Shown: positions 3,430 through 42,677 of the stretch, in pieces | Numbering within the stretch: the first letter of the stretch is position 1 | How the letters are laid out: every line of letters starts with the position of its first letter | Source: a virus | Length of the DNA: 44,688 bases | IMG/VR virus record: IMGVR_UViG_3300020171_000056 | Coordinates: 1-44,688 of that record | Reading direction: 5' to 3' (one strand) | Position numbers and translations under genes: made by a program | Notes under the pieces: model-generated | What the model was told of the DNA's origin: nothing | Database searches by the model: none | What the model saw: the letters and a program-made list of their open reading frames with translations, nothing else

Positions 3430-3627
3430 ATGAACCGCTGCCAAAAGTGTCAGGGGTTAATGGAAAAACGGCATGAATTAGGGGAGGGGATCTGGTTTAT
3501 GGACATCGTATGTGCCAATTGTGGCTGGAGGCTGTGGCCTCAAGAAATATTAGATCAAAGGGCAATAGCAAGAGCTGTGTTTTTTGCCAATTCCAAGGCC
3601 AGGAAAATGCGAAATGTGGCGTACTAA
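3430..3627 (+). CDS. Zinc-ribbon protein (65 aa)
   Basis: GAGGAGG precedes ATG 3430, so the in-frame ATG at 3415 is not used. CQKC (residues 4-7) and CANC (about 29-32) form a zinc ribbon, followed by a basic helix (DQRAIARAVFF, SKARKMRN). It resembles many short phage zinc-ribbon proteins of unknown function. It ends just before the independent promoter at 3647. Confidence 0.65.
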   Translation: MNRCQKCQGLMEKRHELGEGIWFMDIVCANCGWRLWPQEILDQRAIARAVFFANSKARKMRNVAY

Positions 3628-3646
3628 AAATAAATAAAAATAACGC

Positions 3647-3675
3647 TTGACAAATGATAAAAACTTTATTAAGAT
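3647..3675 (+). promoter_or_regulatory. Sigma70-type promoter of a leaderless gene
   Basis: TTGACA (3647-3652), 17-bp spacer, TAAGAT (3670-3675). The ATG of the next gene begins at 3683, exactly 7 nt after the -10 hexamer, where transcription would start. No ribosome site precedes that ATG. Confidence 0.7.
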
Positions 3676-5906: not shown

Positions 5907-6134
5907 ATGAATTTAGATAAACTGGATAACCCAGAGAAATTTATCTTCATGTGGCAATACCGGTTATTAGGACATTTTAAAACTGCACTCATCGAAGCAA
6001 TATGTCGGGCTGACGATGACAATTTAGGGAAATTGAGTTTGGGATTCCCCGATGAAGTAAAGGGATATATTAATTATGCACGGGTTACTGGATGGTGGAA
6101 GGAAGTGCAACTAAAAGCAGAAAAGGAGGAATAA
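5907..6134 (+). CDS. Conserved small phage protein (75 aa)
   Basis: The sequence (KLDNPEKFIFMWQYRLLGHF, then CRADDDNLGKLSLGFPDEV and a WW pair) matches a small family I recognise from uncharacterised phage genomes. It is mostly helical. It lies directly upstream of the probable recombination gene pair, which may indicate a linked role, but nothing in the sequence shows it. Confidence 0.7.
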   Translation: MNLDKLDNPEKFIFMWQYRLLGHFKTALIEAICRADDDNLGKLSLGFPDEVKGYINYARVTGWWKEVQLKAEKEE

Positions 6135-6136
6135 AA

Positions 6137-7030
6137 ATGGATGAATTACAGATTTATGAATCGAAGCCGTTGACGGCAAAGGACATCAAGGGTCAGGTTG
6201 ATTTGATCCAAGATGTAATGAAAAGTGTAATGCGGGATAAGGAGCATTACGGAGTTATCCCAGGGTGCGGGGATAAACCTGCCCTTCTAAAACCTGGGGC
6301 TGAAAAACTGAATCTTACCTTCCGCATGGCTCCCGATCCCGAAACAGAAATGGTTGATCTGGGAGGTGGCCACAGGGAATACCGTGTCAAATGTATCCTA
6401 AGAGCGATTGAATCCGGCCGTACCCTCGGAGCTGGGGTTGGATCTGCTTCCACAATGGAAACCAAATGGCGATTTAGGAAGGCCGAGAGAAAATGCCCCA
6501 AGTGTGAACAGGAGGCCATTATTAAAGGAAAACAGGAATTCGGGGGTGGTTGGCTATGCTTTGGTAAGAAAGGAGGTTGTGGGGCCAAATTTAAAGATGG
6601 AGATATGATAATTGAGAGCCAGACGGTAGGACGTGTAGAATATGATAATCCTGCCGATTATTATAATACCTGCTGGAAGATGGCGAAAAAGAGAGCCCTT
6701 GTGGATGCTGTTCTTACAGTTACGGCTGCTTCAGACATCTTTACCCAGGACGTTGAAGAAATGGTTGAAAATGGAACGATAGATCCCAAACCCTCCACCG
6801 AACCAAAGAAAGAAATTGAATCTCCTGCACCTCCATTGCAAGGTGAAATCAATTTCCTTGAAGAAATGAAGCGGTACAAGGTGAAGGTAGGTCAGGTTAA
6901 GTTTGGTGAAATCCTGACCGGTCGTTATTCCGCGATGAAACTGGAAGATGTTAAACCCGAAGATCAACCCTTGATCCTCAAGGAGATGGAAGAGGCATAT
7001 CAGGCACGAATAACGAAGGAGAAGAAATAA
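6137..7030 (+). CDS. Conserved phage protein, possible ssDNA-annealing recombinase (297 aa)
   Basis: AAAGGAGG precedes ATG 6137. The core (HYGVIPGCGDKPALLKPGAE, then REYRVKCILRAIESGRTLG) and the late conserved block YYNTCWKMAKKRALVDAVL with ASDIFTQD belong to a common phage family. An internal zinc site uses CPKC and two later cysteines in GGGWLCFGKKGGCGAKF. The last 80 residues are a linker and helices. It sits in front of a Cas4-like nuclease with overlapping ATG, the usual layout of annealase-exonuclease pairs, so I infer a recombination role; the family itself has no confirmed activity known to me. Confidence 0.6.
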   Translation: MDELQIYESKPLTAKDIKGQVDLIQDVMKSVMRDKEHYGVIPGCGDKPALLKPGAEKLNLTFRMAPDPETEMVDLGGGHREYRVKCILRAIESGRTLGAGVGSASTMETKWRFRKAERKCPKCEQEAIIKGKQEFGGGWLCFGKKGGCGAKFKDGDMIIESQTVGRVEYDNPADYYNTCWKMAKKRALVDAVLTVTAASDIFTQDVEEMVENGTIDPKPSTEPKKEIESPAPPLQGEINFLEEMKRYKVKVGQVKFGEILTGRYSAMKLEDVKPEDQPLILKEMEEAYQARITKEKK

Positions 7031-7779
7031 TGCCAGCCAGAAATTATAGACAAAAAACCACAGGCAAGGCCGTCAAGGGAGTTACCACCATCCTCAGTAT
7101 TTTATCCAAACCGGCTTTGATATTTTGGGGATATAAGCAAGGAATGAGCAACTTTGATAGATTGATGGTCGAAATCGCCGTATTATCGAACATGACAATA
7201 AAAGAAGATCCTGAAAATTTGGATAAGATTATTCAAAATTTTAAAATAACTGGCCTTTATGATAAACGAGACAAGGCTGGTAATGCTGGAACCCTTGCTC
7301 ATTCCTTCGTGGAAAACCACATAAAGGGATTACCTGAACCCTCAACAGGTGGGATTACACAGGATGTAATTGATAAGGCCGAGGGATGTTATTTGACCTT
7401 TTTGGATTGGGAAAAAACAAACAAACTAAAGGTAATTGCCTCTGAAGTTGAATTGACCTCTGAAAAAAATGCCTTCGGGGGAACGATCGATGATGTAATA
7501 CAAACGGCCTTAACCCCCCAAGGAATGGTTGATATTTTTGACTTAAAGACGGGGAAAGATATTTATTTGGAAGCAAAGATTCAGGTAAAAAGTTATTCAA
7601 AACTTTGGGAAGAACATCATCCTGAATTGCCGGTATCGGGTTTTCACATCCTTCGATTAGGAGAAAGCGGGGAATTTACGCACAAGTATTTCCCGTCTCT
7701 GGATGAGGGATATTGGAAAATCTTTTTAGACTTATTGGATGTCACAGAAACCCTCTCACAACTCGGAGAGAAATTATGA
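7030..7779 (+). CDS. PD-(D/E)XK exonuclease, Cas4/RecB-like (249 aa)
   Basis: The nuclease core is visible in order: GTLAHSFVENHIKG (helix near residue 88), SEVELTS (strand), GGTIDDVI with the catalytic aspartate, DIFDLKTGKD with the DxK motif, and the QVKSYSKLW helix of the RecB/Cas4 group. Enzymes of this kind resect DNA ends to feed a strand-annealing protein, here probably the product at 6137. The A of the ATG overlaps the last base of that gene's stop codon. Confidence 0.8.
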   Translation: MPARNYRQKTTGKAVKGVTTILSILSKPALIFWGYKQGMSNFDRLMVEIAVLSNMTIKEDPENLDKIIQNFKITGLYDKRDKAGNAGTLAHSFVENHIKGLPEPSTGGITQDVIDKAEGCYLTFLDWEKTNKLKVIASEVELTSEKNAFGGTIDDVIQTALTPQGMVDIFDLKTGKDIYLEAKIQVKSYSKLWEEHHPELPVSGFHILRLGESGEFTHKYFPSLDEGYWKIFLDLLDVTETLSQLGEKL

Positions 7780-9056: not shown

Positions 9057-9336
9057 ACGGATAAATGCTCCAGTCCAAATGCCCCATAGTGGACGAGTTC
9101 CACATGGTATTAGATTTCGTGTGCCTTGGCGGATACATAAAAAAGCATGGGAGGAATATGCAAAGCATTATTCTGATCAATCAGCAGAGAAAATAGCAGA
9201 CCGAGGAGGGTTTGGTCTTGAGGAGTTAATTTATTTTTTAGCTGGCGAAAATCCATACACAGTTTTAACAGACGATAAAATGGCAACCGATTTTTTTAAC
9301 AAATATGAAGAAGAAAAGAGGAATCCCAATGAGTGA
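9049..9336 (+). CDS. Protein of unknown function (95 aa)
   Basis: AGGAAGGAGG precedes ATG 9049; the longer frame from 8947 would overlap the previous gene. A basic segment (RVPHGIRFRVPWRIHKKAW) is followed by a helical, acidic region ending NKYEEEKRNPNE. No family is recognised. Confidence 0.65.
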   Translation: MNERINAPVQMPHSGRVPHGIRFRVPWRIHKKAWEEYAKHYSDQSAEKIADRGGFGLEELIYFLAGENPYTVLTDDKMATDFFNKYEEEKRNPNE

Positions 9337-10252
9337 AGAAGAGAAATGGAAAAAGGAATATCTACAACTTCCTCATTATATAAGACATCCTGCTCCATAC
9401 GGGGAGGAGATTTATTTCCAAGCTTGCCGAAAGAGGCAGGAGGAGATTAACTTGCTACTAAATTTCATCCCTGATGGATTGGAAAAAGCCGAGGAAGAAC
9501 TTAAAGATCCCATTAAACTCTCAGAGATCCTTCGACCAATGGGATTTGTGGTTGTGCCAATGGATCAGTGGGATGTTTACTCAAAAGCTGAGGAGAGGGC
9601 TGATAAGGCTGAGGCCAGAATGTTAGATCAGGTTGAAATTAATGTAAAACAATTAGTTACCAATACCTCCTTATTACAATCAACTAAAATTCTCGAGGTG
9701 AGGGCTGAAAAACTCCAGCAAAGATTGGACTTAGAAAAATTATCCTATAATGGGATGGAACAATTACTTATTAGAGAGAGAAAGAGGGCTGATAGAGAAA
9801 CGGTTAGCGTTAATGAATTAAGTTTAGCTAACCAGGAACTTGAACTTCGCCTCAAGAATATTAAGGAGGACATTAAGAGTTGGGATATTCCACAATACTA
9901 TAAGAATAAGGTCCTTGAGGAAGTGAAGTCCGATCTCAAAAATTATACTTCTCCTATTGAACTATTATCATTGATAAAGCAATTAACGGAGAGGATTAGG
10001 AAATTGGAGGCTGAATTAAATCGGGAAATGACTTATAAGGAAGCATTAGAACAAACTGAAAAAGAGAGAGAACGATTAAGCAAATTATTAATTGAAGCCC
10101 GAACGGAAATTGTAGAATTGAGGGCCACCCTTGCCTTAATCAAGGCCGATGAGAGTATTGGCAAATTAGTGGTTGAGTGTAATTGTAACCATGATGGGGA
10201 GTTTGATGCAGGACAAAGGCATTGTAGAAAATGCGGGGAATATTTATTTTAA
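9329..10252 (+). CDS. Coiled-coil protein with C-terminal zinc ribbon (307 aa)
   Basis: ATG 9329 follows AGAGGA and overlaps the preceding gene by 8 nt. Residues 1-50 share a short module with the protein at 8664. Residues 90-280 are long heptad-rich helices (for example LTERIRKLEAELNREM and EKERERLSKLLIEA). The last 25 residues hold CNCNHDGEFD and CRKCG, a zinc ribbon. It may bridge proteins or DNA. The stop codon TAA lies within the first half-site of attC-like site A. Confidence 0.65.
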   Translation: MSEEEKWKKEYLQLPHYIRHPAPYGEEIYFQACRKRQEEINLLLNFIPDGLEKAEEELKDPIKLSEILRPMGFVVVPMDQWDVYSKAEERADKAEARMLDQVEINVKQLVTNTSLLQSTKILEVRAEKLQQRLDLEKLSYNGMEQLLIRERKRADRETVSVNELSLANQELELRLKNIKEDIKSWDIPQYYKNKVLEEVKSDLKNYTSPIELLSLIKQLTERIRKLEAELNREMTYKEALEQTEKERERLSKLLIEARTEIVELRATLALIKADESIGKLVVECNCNHDGEFDAGQRHCRKCGEYLF

Positions 10253-10291
10253 CGCAAAGGTCAGCGGCGTTTTGCACGTCCGCTCGAATGA
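10247..10291. repeat. Partial attC-like site (site A)
   Basis: TTTTAAC (10247-10253, R''-like) is followed by TCAGCGGCGT (10261-10270), which pairs with ACG-T-CCGCT-C-GA (10276-10287), leaving single unpaired T and C bases. A 3' GTTRRRY core is not present, so this looks like a decayed or truncated attC. The hairpin ends 4 nt before the ATG at 10292. Confidence 0.4.
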
Positions 10292-10405
10292 ATGGAATGG
10301 GCAGATGCAATGATCAGTTTAAATGATGCTCTTGAGGAAGCGAAGAACTCTGGAATAACGAAAGATGAAGTGCTTAAAGAAGTGGATAACGTCTTTATAG
10401 AATGA
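10292..10405 (+). CDS. Small conserved phage-type protein (37 aa)
   Basis: ATG 10292 lies just after the site A hairpin, with no clear ribosome site. The helical product (WADAMISLNDALEEAKNSGI, then EVLKEVDNVF) resembles short phage proteins I have seen. It ends 2 nt before attC-like site B, so it occupies the position of a cassette gene. Confidence 0.55.
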   Translation: MEWADAMISLNDALEEAKNSGITKDEVLKEVDNVFIE

Positions 10406-10406
10406 A

Positions 10407-10507
10407 ATATAACGTAGAAGTGAGTTGCGGCCAATGATTAAGAATCGGGCTATTTTAAAAACGATAACACCCAATTATTGGCCGTCAACTCCAGTGATGG
10501 GTTATGC
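10407..10507. repeat. attC-like recombination site (site B)
   Basis: R''-like ATATAAC (10407-10413) and R'-like GTTATGC (10501-10507) enclose a 14-bp stem: GAGTTGCGGCCAAT (10422-10435) with ATTGGCCG (10477-10484) and CAACTC (10486-10491), leaving T10485 extrahelical. Unpaired spacers of 8 and 9 nt separate the R and L boxes. Length 101 bp is in the attC range. The R' GTTATGC is the exact complement of GCATAAC at the end of the following cassette. Confidence 0.7.
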
Positions 10508-10524
10508 TTTTATAAGGAGATTCC

Positions 10525-10713
10525 ATGAAAGTAAAGGAGTTAATGCAAAAATTAAGTGAATATAATTTTGATGCTGAAATGTCTGTAATTGCCCATAATT
10601 ATAAAGAAGAGTTCTCAATAACATATGGGAGTGGATCAGAAGGTGAAACAAAAGAAAATTGCAAAGAGGTTAATTTTTATGTTGATCGCCTCTGTCAAAG
10701 TGAAAGAGCATAA
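10525..10713 (+). CDS. Cassette-borne small protein (62 aa)
   Basis: AAGGAG precedes ATG 10525. The protein opens MKVKELMQKLSEYNFDAEM, close to a widespread small phage family that begins with a helix and a D-A-E strand. Function unknown. The gene lies inside a unit bounded by GTTATGC (10501) and GCATAAC (10708), the 7-bp complementary ends expected of an integron gene cassette. Confidence 0.7.
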   Translation: MKVKELMQKLSEYNFDAEMSVIAHNYKEEFSITYGSGSEGETKENCKEVNFYVDRLCQSERA

Positions 10714-10795
10714 CGTCCCGCATGACCTGTGCGGGCAGGAGGTATCATGAAAAAGCAGAAGACTATCACGCATCAGGTCGATGCGGTTGTTAGAT
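10708..10795. repeat. attC-like recombination site (site C)
   Basis: R'' GCATAAC (10708-10714) and R' GTTAGAT (10789-10795, full match to GTTRRRY) enclose a 12-bp stem: CCGCATGACCTG (10718-10729) with CAGGTC (10774-10779) and ATGCGG (10781-10786), leaving G10780 extrahelical. Spacers are 3 and 2 nt. The inner loop also holds a CCCGCA/TGCGGG hairpin next to the ribosome site at 10737. The R' is the exact complement of ATCTAAC at 10975. Confidence 0.7.
10717..10735 (+). promoter_or_regulatory. Stem-loop next to a ribosome site
   Basis: CCCGCA (10717-10722) pairs with TGCGGG (10730-10735), loop 7 nt, one base before AGGAGG of the gene at 10747. It is an alternative pairing to the longer attC-like stem of site C, so the two structures are mutually exclusive. 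Confidence 0.5.
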
Positions 10796-10980
10796 GGGTT
10801 TGGTCTTTGTATTGTTTTTTCTTTGATCATAAGTGGGTCATCCAGGGCGGTCGCCAATGTCCCAAGGTTGAATACGATTGCAGTCAAAATGTCTATCGGT
10901 GCGCCCATTGTGGTGATTGGGATTATGGTGAAGAAGGTGGCCCAACTTGGCATGAGTGCACTTTTCATTGTTCCATCTAA
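10747..10980 (+). CDS. Cassette-borne protein with zinc-binding C terminus (77 aa)
   Basis: AGGAGG precedes ATG 10747. The protein has an aromatic N-terminal segment (VVRWVWSLYCFFFDHKW) and a cysteine-rich end (QCPKVEYDCSQNVYRCAHCG, then HECTFHC), a pattern I recognise from small phage proteins. The first 16 codons lie inside attC-like site C, so the original cassette gene may have started later and acquired this start on insertion. The stop overlaps ATCTAAC of site D. Confidence 0.65.
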   Translation: MKKQKTITHQVDAVVRWVWSLYCFFFDHKWVIQGGRQCPKVEYDCSQNVYRCAHCGDWDYGEEGGPTWHECTFHCSI

Positions 10981-11015
10981 CCATTGATTAACAGGCCATT
11001 TTGCCTGATAACAAT
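10975..11015. repeat. Partial attC-like site (site D)
   Basis: ATCTAAC (10975-10981) fits RYYYAAC and complements the GTTAGAT of site C. It is followed by ATTG-A-TTA-A-CAGGC pairing with GCCTG-A-TAA-CAAT (stems at 10983-10996 and 11003-11015, one unpaired A and one A-A mismatch). No GTTRRRY follows before the LAGLIDADG gene, so the 3' half is missing or replaced. Confidence 0.5.
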
Positions 11016-11038: not shown

Positions 11039-11515
11039 ATGAATAAAATGGAATACCACAAGATCGAAAAACTTACAGAAATTCAAGTCGCATATTTTGC
11101 GGGACTTCTCGACGGAGAAGGTTGTGTGCGAATCGGTAAATTCAGGAACTCGTCTGGTGTTACACGATACCGTGCCTATATAGTTATTGCCATGACAGAT
11201 GTTCGTCCGATTAATTGGCTGGTGAATACCATCGGCGGCAAGAAATATATTGACAAAAAGAAGCGATTTGGTAATTCAAAGATATGTTTTTGTTGGACAT
11301 TAAACGCAAAAGAAGGATCAACTATTCTTCGTCGTACATTACCCTATCTTTTGGTCAAATCTGAACAGTCTCGCAATTTCATTGCTTTCGCAGAGACGCT
11401 GACAGGTAGGGGTGGGCGGGGGATTAACAAACCCATATCACAATCTTTATTGAAAACTCGTGCCCAAATGTTTTTGGTTAGTCAATCTCTCAACCAAAAG
11501 GGGAAGACAACATGA
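11039..11515 (+). CDS. LAGLIDADG homing endonuclease (158 aa)
   Basis: The LAGLIDADG helix is visible as VAYFAGLLDGEGCVRIGK near residues 18-35. With one such motif the enzyme should work as a homodimer. The rest (RAYIVIAMTDVRPINWLV, KKRFGNSKICFCW) fits the family fold. AAAGGAG is closest to ATG 11039; ATG 11048 is an alternative. The N terminus reads YHKIEKL, nearly the same as YHKIETL of the RNA ligase just downstream, whose ATG overlaps this gene's stop (ATGA). This suggests the endonuclease gene captured the target gene's 5' end. Confidence 0.8.
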   Translation: MNKMEYHKIEKLTEIQVAYFAGLLDGEGCVRIGKFRNSSGVTRYRAYIVIAMTDVRPINWLVNTIGGKKYIDKKKRFGNSKICFCWTLNAKEGSTILRRTLPYLLVKSEQSRNFIAFAETLTGRGGRGINKPISQSLLKTRAQMFLVSQSLNQKGKTT

Positions 11516-40795: not shown

Positions 40796-42475
40796 TCATG
40801 CCAGCCCATAAGTGAGAGGGTTATAATCTTCTTGTTTCGCTTCGGTGATCGTTTCTAAAAATGACCTCATCGGATCTTGTTCGTATGCCTCTGACAGATT
40901 CTTAACTGCAACCTCAAAATAATTGGTAGCATGACGATAATGATCCGCCCCAAGTTTCCGATACCGATAAATCTTGGTTCCTCTTTTTTCATCTTCTTCA
41001 AGAATTTTTGCGATATTACTCATCTGCTTCGCATATTCTTCAAGGGCAGCATTCTTTCGAGGAAAAATATATTCTCCTCTTTTTATAGCCATATGGGTCT
41101 GATCGCAAATCTCGGTTCGGGCCAACTCCATCATCCCCAAATCAAAGTCTTGTTTCAAACCTTCCTTGATCTTGTCCTTGTAGGTGCAGAGAATAACGGG
41201 GAATCCAGCGTTTTTCTTAAACTCCCTGGCCTTCCTTGTTTCGGGATAACAATCAATGGCGGCCTGTCTCACGTTAAATCTCTTCCCAAGTTCAACAATG
41301 TCCTCAAATTCGGGAACGTCACCTACCCAAAGGATTTTCTTCTTTGCCGTCCATTTCATTTTCTTGCCAATAACGATATGGAGTGTTTTCCCAACATCAA
41401 TTCCCATCCCACAGGGTCCCCATCGATCCTCGGTTGCCATTAGATGAGTGCCACAGCAAGAAAAGATGTCGTTTACCGTCAATCTATTTTCGGCGGCGAT
41501 ATACGCCATTGCGAGTTTTGAATTATAAACCTCCTGGAGATTACCATTAGGGGGATTTTCAAATAATCTTAAAATTTCTCCCGGGTCGATATAAAGAGAA
41601 TTTAATTGAGAGATCCAGTATCCTTCAAAGTCTTTGACAGACGGAACCTGGGCAATCCATTCTCCGTCTTTTGGGAAAAGACCACCGTGATTATCAGAAC
41701 CACATTTTACGCAAGCCCTATAAGCTACTCCTTTTTTAAACTTTACACATTCGGGAAAATCAAGCTCAAGGCAACAATCCCGCCCACATTGTTCACATTT
41801 AATCATCCAAATCTCTTGGTCTGATTCATTATAAAGACGATCTATCCCATAATCAGGAATCGTTGGCGTTGAAAGATATGCTTCCTCTTTCACATCAGAA
41901 TGGCTGAATCTCTCAAGGGCAATAGGGATCATGGACTCATCCATTAAATCAATTTCATCAAAAACAATCTTATCAACCGCCCTTGATCTCAATCCCGCAC
42001 TTTCTTTTTTTAATCCTTGAATTTTTTGTGTCGGCCTTGCCCCATGAAGAAAAAGGTTTGATTTCTGTATCTGCTTAATATTCACCGCTGAAGTATCTCC
42101 AATAAACCTTCCAATGTGATAGGGATTATTCTGAATCAAAGGTTTAAACCTTGATTTAGAAAACTCCGAAACATCATCATCGGTAGGAAAAAGGTAAAGA
42201 ACTCCCTTTAAATAAGTTCCCACAATCATACCATGAATATCAACAATTATCTCTCCTTCCGTAAATCCCATCTGAGCACCTTTCTTTGTTGCTTTTTTGT
42301 GTGCCTTTGATGTCATCGGTCCTATTAAATATTCGTGCCCCTTTAATTCAAATACCCCGGCCTGCAACTTAATCTTATTGTAATACGCCCAATACCAAGC
42401 GTTGACCAAAGCAAGATCAGAGTTCTTTACCTTCTGGTCTTTTACTTTAGGTTTTGGTTTAAGCAGTCTTCCCAT
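40796..42475 (-). CDS. Terminase large subunit, GpA-type (559 aa)
   Basis: The ATPase has a deviant Walker A (KKGAQMGFTE, near residue 65) and Walker B VDKIVFDEID (near 170). A zinc motif CEQC/CVKC follows. The nuclease domain begins at GMGIDVGKTLHIVIG and has further acidic residues (AAIDCYPETRK). The protein packages DNA into the prohead through the portal. I prefer ATG 42475; ATG 42487 lies four codons upstream. It overlaps the small gene upstream by 17 nt. Confidence 0.88.
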   Translation of the reverse strand: MGRLLKPKPKVKDQKVKNSDLALVNAWYWAYYNKIKLQAGVFELKGHEYLIGPMTSKAHKKATKKGAQMGFTEGEIIVDIHGMIVGTYLKGVLYLFPTDDDVSEFSKSRFKPLIQNNPYHIGRFIGDTSAVNIKQIQKSNLFLHGARPTQKIQGLKKESAGLRSRAVDKIVFDEIDLMDESMIPIALERFSHSDVKEEAYLSTPTIPDYGIDRLYNESDQEIWMIKCEQCGRDCCLELDFPECVKFKKGVAYRACVKCGSDNHGGLFPKDGEWIAQVPSVKDFEGYWISQLNSLYIDPGEILRLFENPPNGNLQEVYNSKLAMAYIAAENRLTVNDIFSCCGTHLMATEDRWGPCGMGIDVGKTLHIVIGKKMKWTAKKKILWVGDVPEFEDIVELGKRFNVRQAAIDCYPETRKAREFKKNAGFPVILCTYKDKIKEGLKQDFDLGMMELARTEICDQTHMAIKRGEYIFPRKNAALEEYAKQMSNIAKILEEDEKRGTKIYRYRKLGADHYRHATNYFEVAVKNLSEAYEQDPMRSFLETITEAKQEDYNPLTYGLA

Positions 42476-42677
42476 CCCCACCACCAATATTCGGAATATT
42501 CGTCAAAGGCACTATCTGAAAATTAACGGTAATCCCCGCCCCAGATATCTGAACCATCGGATTTATCCTGCAATTCCACCTTGCAAGAATTCTTTGAACA
42601 TCTATTAAACAGTTCTTTGCCCTTAAATCGGCTGAAATCGCTTCCTCCACTATCTTATCAGACTTTACTAATTCCAT
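42459..42677 (-). CDS. Small protein upstream of terminase (72 aa)
   Basis: AGGGAGG precedes the ATG. The product has a helix (ELVKSDKIVEEAISADLRAK) and a strand-rich end (RINPMVQISGAGITVNFQIV). It could be part of the packaging module by position, but no family is recognised. Confidence 0.65.
   Translation of the reverse strand: MELVKSDKIVEEAISADLRAKNCLIDVQRILARWNCRINPMVQISGAGITVNFQIVPLTNIPNIGGGDGKTA

Follow-up and report, generated by a model that had tools for sequence, protein, structure and literature searches.

A probable reversed CALIN with two intact attC cassettes in the early operon of a metagenomic phage

The stretch from position 10253 to 10980 of the IMG/VR virus record IMGVR_UViG_3300020171_000056 (44,688 bp, 41% GC; the whole record was analyzed and is referred to here as the window) is very likely a reversed CALIN that lies in a phage early operon and comprises two intact cassettes and one degenerate unit. 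CALINs are clusters of attC sites without an integron integrase, and the arrangement in the window corresponds to this definition, the two attCs being separated by 200 bp and the record lacking an integron integrase; as intI is missing, a complete integron (intI plus attI) is not present. The original prediction, namely cassettes of the integron type that have attC sites but lack an integrase, is thereby upheld, both by the matches to a covariance model of attC sites and by the absence of integrase profiles from the record. The genes are antisense to the attC sites of the array, all of which are located on the minus strand, a point that was absent from this prediction. The presence of attC sites in phages without an integrase is not new, since CALINs in virulent phages, together with IntI1 activity, were published in 2023 (Qi et al., 2023; PMC9892861), and phage-borne attC arrays are so far known from a handful of phages.

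The virus record and the genes around the array

The window contains genes for a terminase, a head-tail connector, a tail fibre, an exonuclease, a LAGLIDADG protein and an RNA ligase, and scans for Rfam families and tRNAs returned no matches in it. Neither an integron integrase nor a tyrosine or serine recombinase was found in the record, which may be incomplete, and a profile search showed that TIGR02249 and PF00589 are absent from its whole length. The array is part of a + strand early operon and is flanked on one side by the stop codon of a 315-aa ORF (ORF 9305; 9305..10252, +), whose TAA ends at the outer array edge 10252|10253, and on the other by a gene for a LAGLIDADG homing endonuclease (11039..11515, +; PF00961, phrog_5046), which is the first gene past the array. 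The same early operon includes a gene for a phage exonuclease (7030..7779, +; phrog_298), a family that also flanks the array of the viral locus L134. The GC content is 0.408 in the array vs. 0.404 in its flanks.

No DNA relatives of the window were detected among 50,697 phage records, and searches of IMG/VR detected homologues neither for the cassette proteins nor for ORF 9305. The terminase large subunit (40796-42487) is very divergent, with one 47% relative in IMG/VR (L002) and about 26% to cultured phages. A search of related phages for the same genes with and without the attC boundaries had been proposed along with the original prediction: five phages possess a homologue of the gene at 6092-7030, these contain no attC and have no other early genes in common with the window, and no relative of the window phage with an empty or altered array was found, the nearest relatives having one gene in common.

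Anatomy and recognition of the attC sites

Read on the minus strand, site B (10407..10507) consists of R'' GCATAAC, L'' GAGTTG[A]CGGCC, L' GGCCGCAACTC and R' GTTATAT, and site C (10708..10795) contains R'' ATCTAAC, L'' CCGCAT[C]GACCTG[A]TGCG and R' GTTATGC. Both have the boxes of an attC (AAC / GTT, with cleavage at G|TT) and an imperfect L''/L' stem with extrahelical bases in L'' on the minus strand. A single extrahelical base had been expected for each of them; site B has one clear case (A) and a possible second by alignment, and site C has two (C, then A six bases on). The proposed box consensus RYYYAAC/GTTRRRY describes GTTAGAT and ATCTAAC, the other boxes being of the form RYRYAAC or GTTRYRY. 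The central loop of site C contains the Shine-Dalgarno sequence and the ATG of gene C.

Four boundary sites had been postulated, and B and C are retained as such. Site A (10247..10307, minus strand) is a degenerate attC with an altered R'' (GCCCATT), in which the L''/L' stem and the R' box G|TTAAAA are kept, so that it resembles an attC in its boxes by R' only; its motif GTCCGCTCGAATGAAGGGTTGGGC is also found in the attCs of L043. Site D (10975..10981, minus strand) is an R' box GTTAGAT that forms the start of the first cassette, with complementarity to R'' of site C at 7/7 positions but neither a stem partner nor a second box. Since the ends of unit A are non-complementary and D is without an attC, part of the array is eroded.

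When the whole 44.7 kb was searched for an AAC and a GTT joined by a stem, site C ranked first and site B second, and none of 600 dinucleotide shuffles contained two sites as strong as B and C at a distance of <=3 kb or, even at a looser threshold, a chain of matching cassette ends. Additionally, two models were derived from arrays at 80 integron-integrase loci (L009-L088): R1 was built from 43 attCs with the central loop trimmed, and R2 is a full-length covariance model of 145 attCs from IntI loci and known integrons that were gathered with R1. In an unfiltered search of both strands of the window, R2 called site C (10708-10795; 41.0 bits, E 6e-8) and site B (10407-10507; 40.0 bits, E 1e-7) at full length on the minus strand, at exactly the positions originally given for them, the model E-values being rough, and the next-best match in the window scored 12.5 bits. 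For comparison, R2 assigned 38.4, 32.4 and 31.8 bits to the attCs of phage TJE1 and 36.2, 35.7, 33.3 and 26.5 bits to those of phage PH101. R1 detects A and C, with site A as its highest-scoring match in the window (10253-10295, 14.7 bits), and misses B because of the long loop of this site; R2 recovers B but drops A, for which it makes no call, and gives no attC call at D.

Orientation and layout of the cassettes

As attC boxes are palindromic in outline, it is the extrahelical bases, together with the model, that indicate polarity. Where real arrays lie to the left of a + strand intI, the bulges are found in the right arm on the + strand, which is L'' read outward. The bulges of B and C are placed as in these intI-anchored arrays, and the canonical strand of both sites is therefore the minus strand. 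With the cassette genes on the + strand and the attCs on the - strand, the genes are antisense to attC, and the window departs from the typical cassette, in which the gene is co-directional with its attC and the attC is positioned at the 3' end. The crossover G|TT on the minus strand corresponds to TAA|C on the plus strand, and the cassette edges are found at TAA|C at 10252|10253, 10412|10413, 10713|10714 and 10980|10981. The crossover TAAs at 10252, 10713 and 10980 serve as the stop codons for ORF 9305, gene B and gene C, respectively.

Cassettes B and C each read C-attC-RBS-gene-TAA. In cassette B (10413..10713, 301 bp), the attC is followed by the strong RBS AAGGAG and a 62-aa ORF (gene B; 10525..10713, +) that belongs to no family, has no significant matches in homology searches and stops with TAA on the crossover point. 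In cassette C (10714..10980, 267 bp), the strong RBS AGGAGG and the ATG are located in the attC loop, and the 77-aa Cys-rich ORF (gene C; 10747..10980, +), for which weak Rhizobium phage homologues were the only ones found (35%, E 1e-3), likewise takes its TAA from the crossover point. The TTRRRY end of a cassette should be complementary to its own R'', and both cassettes match at 7/7 positions, in agreement with the originally reported pairs GTTATGC (10501) / GCATAAC (10708) and GTTAGAT (10789) / ATCTAAC (10975). The assignment of GTTAGAT at 10789 as a boundary of the gene at 10747 is to be discarded, as this box lies inside that gene and the true edges are at TAA|C. Unit A (10253..10412) combines the degenerate attC with a 31-aa ORF (10310..10405, +) that has no clear Shine-Dalgarno sequence; its ends are not complementary, and the unit is therefore probably not excisable.

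Cassettes in viral and bacterial arrays

Viral loci were chosen by their attC motif: IMG/VR was searched with three attC-half patterns, R2 was applied to the resulting loci, and neighbouring sites were retained if the cassette ends matched 4/4 at the variable positions. This gave 186 viral cassettes, among them those of the window, TJE1 and PH101, and some loci stem from one contig or metagenome, so that not all are independent; the bacterial control comprises 70 integron cassettes from one scan. The longest ORF that has a ribosome-binding site was taken to define the direction of a gene, the cassette ORF calls being simple. By this measure, antisense and sense genes are found at 116:30 in viral cassettes (56:10 in the first sample, 60:20 in the second) vs. 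16:46 in bacterial integrons, and the majority per locus is antisense or sense at 47:11 vs. 3:19 (Fisher p 4e-8). Terminase-bearing records together with PH101, TJE1 and the window show a ratio of 71:16. If the longest ORF is used without the RBS requirement, the bias in the second viral sample is weaker (53 antisense to 47 sense), and the long flanking ORFs of the viral loci lean antisense to attC with a noisy 188:120. If a GTTA box is present, the crossover is the exact end of the longest antisense ORF in 65/149 viral vs. 3/56 bacterial cassettes, and a length below 350 bp is found for 88 of the 186 viral cassettes vs. one of the 70 bacterial ones. Of the 71 viral records searched (40 + 31), one, L199, has an integron integrase that passes the family cut-off. 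In this 45.8 kb viral contig, the sole classifiable cassette is sense.

The gain or loss of a cassette can be followed in the related viral contigs L102 and L162, which have common flanks and differ by one exactly bounded 607-bp cassette (L102:8923-9322, L162:12806-13811). L102 reads attC, G|TTAGGC-CCCATCAATCCC, and in L162 a near-identical attC precedes the 607-bp cassette, which includes an attC of its own and is followed by G|TTAGGC-CCCATCAATCCC. This last sequence sits in a 127-bp stretch that is identical between both contigs, the downstream flank is identical and the insertion is exactly at G|TT; the homology of the pair stops on the crossover, as required for cassette gain or loss. Such precisely bounded differences between related viral contigs and the recombination of similar phage attCs with IntI1 (PMC9892861) support the earlier proposal that the genes can be mobilised as cassettes, in principle. 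In other homologous blocks among the arrays, the ends are often a few bases away from the crossovers.

The antisense cassette ORFs are spread over 51 PHROG families, most of which are matched once, and the sense cassette ORFs match 28 families, among which methyltransferases and RtcB are dominant; a minority of ordinary sense cassettes is thus also present in the viral sample. Exceptions to the reversed layout are L265 and L305, two viral contigs with a terminase in which the arrays have a mainly sense orientation. Dense arrays that combine 7-12 attCs and small antisense genes, in viral contigs that have no integron integrase over the cut-off, are found at L154:6642-9590, L187:9978-13824, L196:110-4153 and L226:591-6684 and in L093 and L134, which are one 66-kb contig. 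Some viral arrays are located near terL and portal genes (L187), RecT (L226, L125) or an exonuclease (L134). The genes for exonucleases or RecT-type annealing proteins close to arrays are at L134:9565-10194, L226:7310-8188, L125:2339-3391 and 7030-7779 of the window; they could be mere early-operon neighbours or, possibly, reflect a link to single-stranded DNA.

Proposed origin and alternative explanations

Integron integrases act on the folded bottom strand of attC. For the array in the window, it is proposed that an integron integrase would be supplied in trans by the infected host and would fold the attC bottom strand, which is here the coding strand of the genes. Cassettes would have been inserted at a G|TT target made by the stop codon of ORF 9305 (GTTAAAA on the minus strand), an event that would leave this ORF intact and place the cassette genes under transcription by the phage; the predicted empty site is TTTATTTTAA|CCATTGATTAACAGG. 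As each cassette takes its TTRRRY along, every gene would have a stop codon of its own. The cassettes of the window may be mobilised by a host integrase in trans, and, to judge from other arrays, cassettes of the reversed type may be exchanged among phages. The coding strand is the lagging-strand template if a gene is co-directional with the fork, and it is exposed in R-loops. As the bottom strand coincides with this strand, one may speculate that the reversal could raise recombination and, in addition, tie expression to the phage operon.

Several other origins have to be weighed against a reversed CALIN of this kind. In an ordinary capture, the cassettes would be copies from a host chromosomal integron that are now inert relics in the phage, and the degenerate site A, the lack of a site at D and the resemblance of the attC types to those of proteobacterial chromosomal integrons agree with this scenario. 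It is nevertheless unlikely, as cassettes B and C have remained intact and the ends of each match perfectly, most bacterial integron genes are sense, and the genes of the window are antisense with crossover stops, a combination seen for the longest antisense ORFs of bacterial cassettes in 3/56 cases. The pick-up from a host integron that had been suggested initially is thus not established and, given the antisense genes and the matches of antisense viral cassette ORFs to phage protein families, less likely as stated. Far less probable still is a function of the hairpins as RNA elements of phage mRNAs (leader stem-loops, processing sites or terminators) in place of recombination sites. Their position in leaders, the stem of C that surrounds the RBS and start codon, and the slightly more stable fold of the coding strand (-34.4 and -29.4 kcal/mol for two sites on the + strand vs. 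-30.7 and -28.2 kcal/mol on the other strand) would suit such a role, but it predicts neither the 7/7 matching of the boxes nor the canonical extrahelical bases and the 40-bit attC match, and units in other contigs are gained or lost exactly at G|TT. A dual role of the hairpins as RNA element and attC is possible. That the record, a metagenomic virus contig, is an assembly chimera in which an integron fragment was fused to a phage contig can practically be dismissed in view of the uniform GC content, the co-directional operon with its RBSs, the edges exactly at TAA|C and the many similar viral contigs, several of which have arrays near terL, portal, RecT and exonuclease genes.

Beyond the reversed CALIN itself, it is tentatively suggested, with a chance somewhat short of even, that phages keep a cassette pool of their own, which would be characterized by short units, an attC in the 5' leader and a crossover-built stop codon. 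If so, the genes would be expressed in phage operons and lie antisense to Pc once in a host integron, the recombinogenic attC bottom strand would be the coding strand, and accessory genes would be exchanged between phages via host integrases; for small accessory genes, this exchange represents a testable prediction. The reversed layout with a stop codon provided by the recombination site suggests that the cassettes are adapted to phage operons and would give gene-finding and integron software a rule to tell phage cassettes from host cassettes.

Comparison with known systems

The sedentary chromosomal integrons at the 80 IntI loci (L009-L088) resemble the window in attC anatomy and in the matching of neighbouring cassette ends. 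In contrast to the window, they have longer cassettes (median 535 bp) in which the genes are predominantly sense, and an antisense ORF that ends at the crossover is rare among them. Insertion at an attG would account for the entry of a cassette at a lone G|TT outside of an integron. Such an event would be visible as an empty site in a relative whose sequence continues across G|TT, and no relative with the genes that flank the array was found. The term attG is used in PMC12901181.

Published phage CALINs are those of Tetrasphaera phage TJE1, Pseudoalteromonas phage PH101, Polaribacter phage P12002L and MW202573, and the attCs of TJE1 were tested with IntI1 (PMC9892861). The window shares with them an attC cluster, the absence of an integrase, small phage genes and comparable model scores. 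The cassettes of TJE1 and PH101 are described as "oriented in the same direction", and the text of this study contains nothing on gene direction relative to attC polarity or on crossover stops (PMC9892861); in the open-access journal literature that was searched, no other report of the reversed layout was found. TJE1 differs from the window in that its genes are sense with attC. According to R2, PH101 and MW202573 are like the window, with genes antisense to the attCs: all CDSs annotated in GenBank in the attC regions of PH101 (L181:25919-27987) and MW202573 (L340:2069-3738) are antisense, and the MW202573 CDS at 3460-3675 ends exactly at a crossover.
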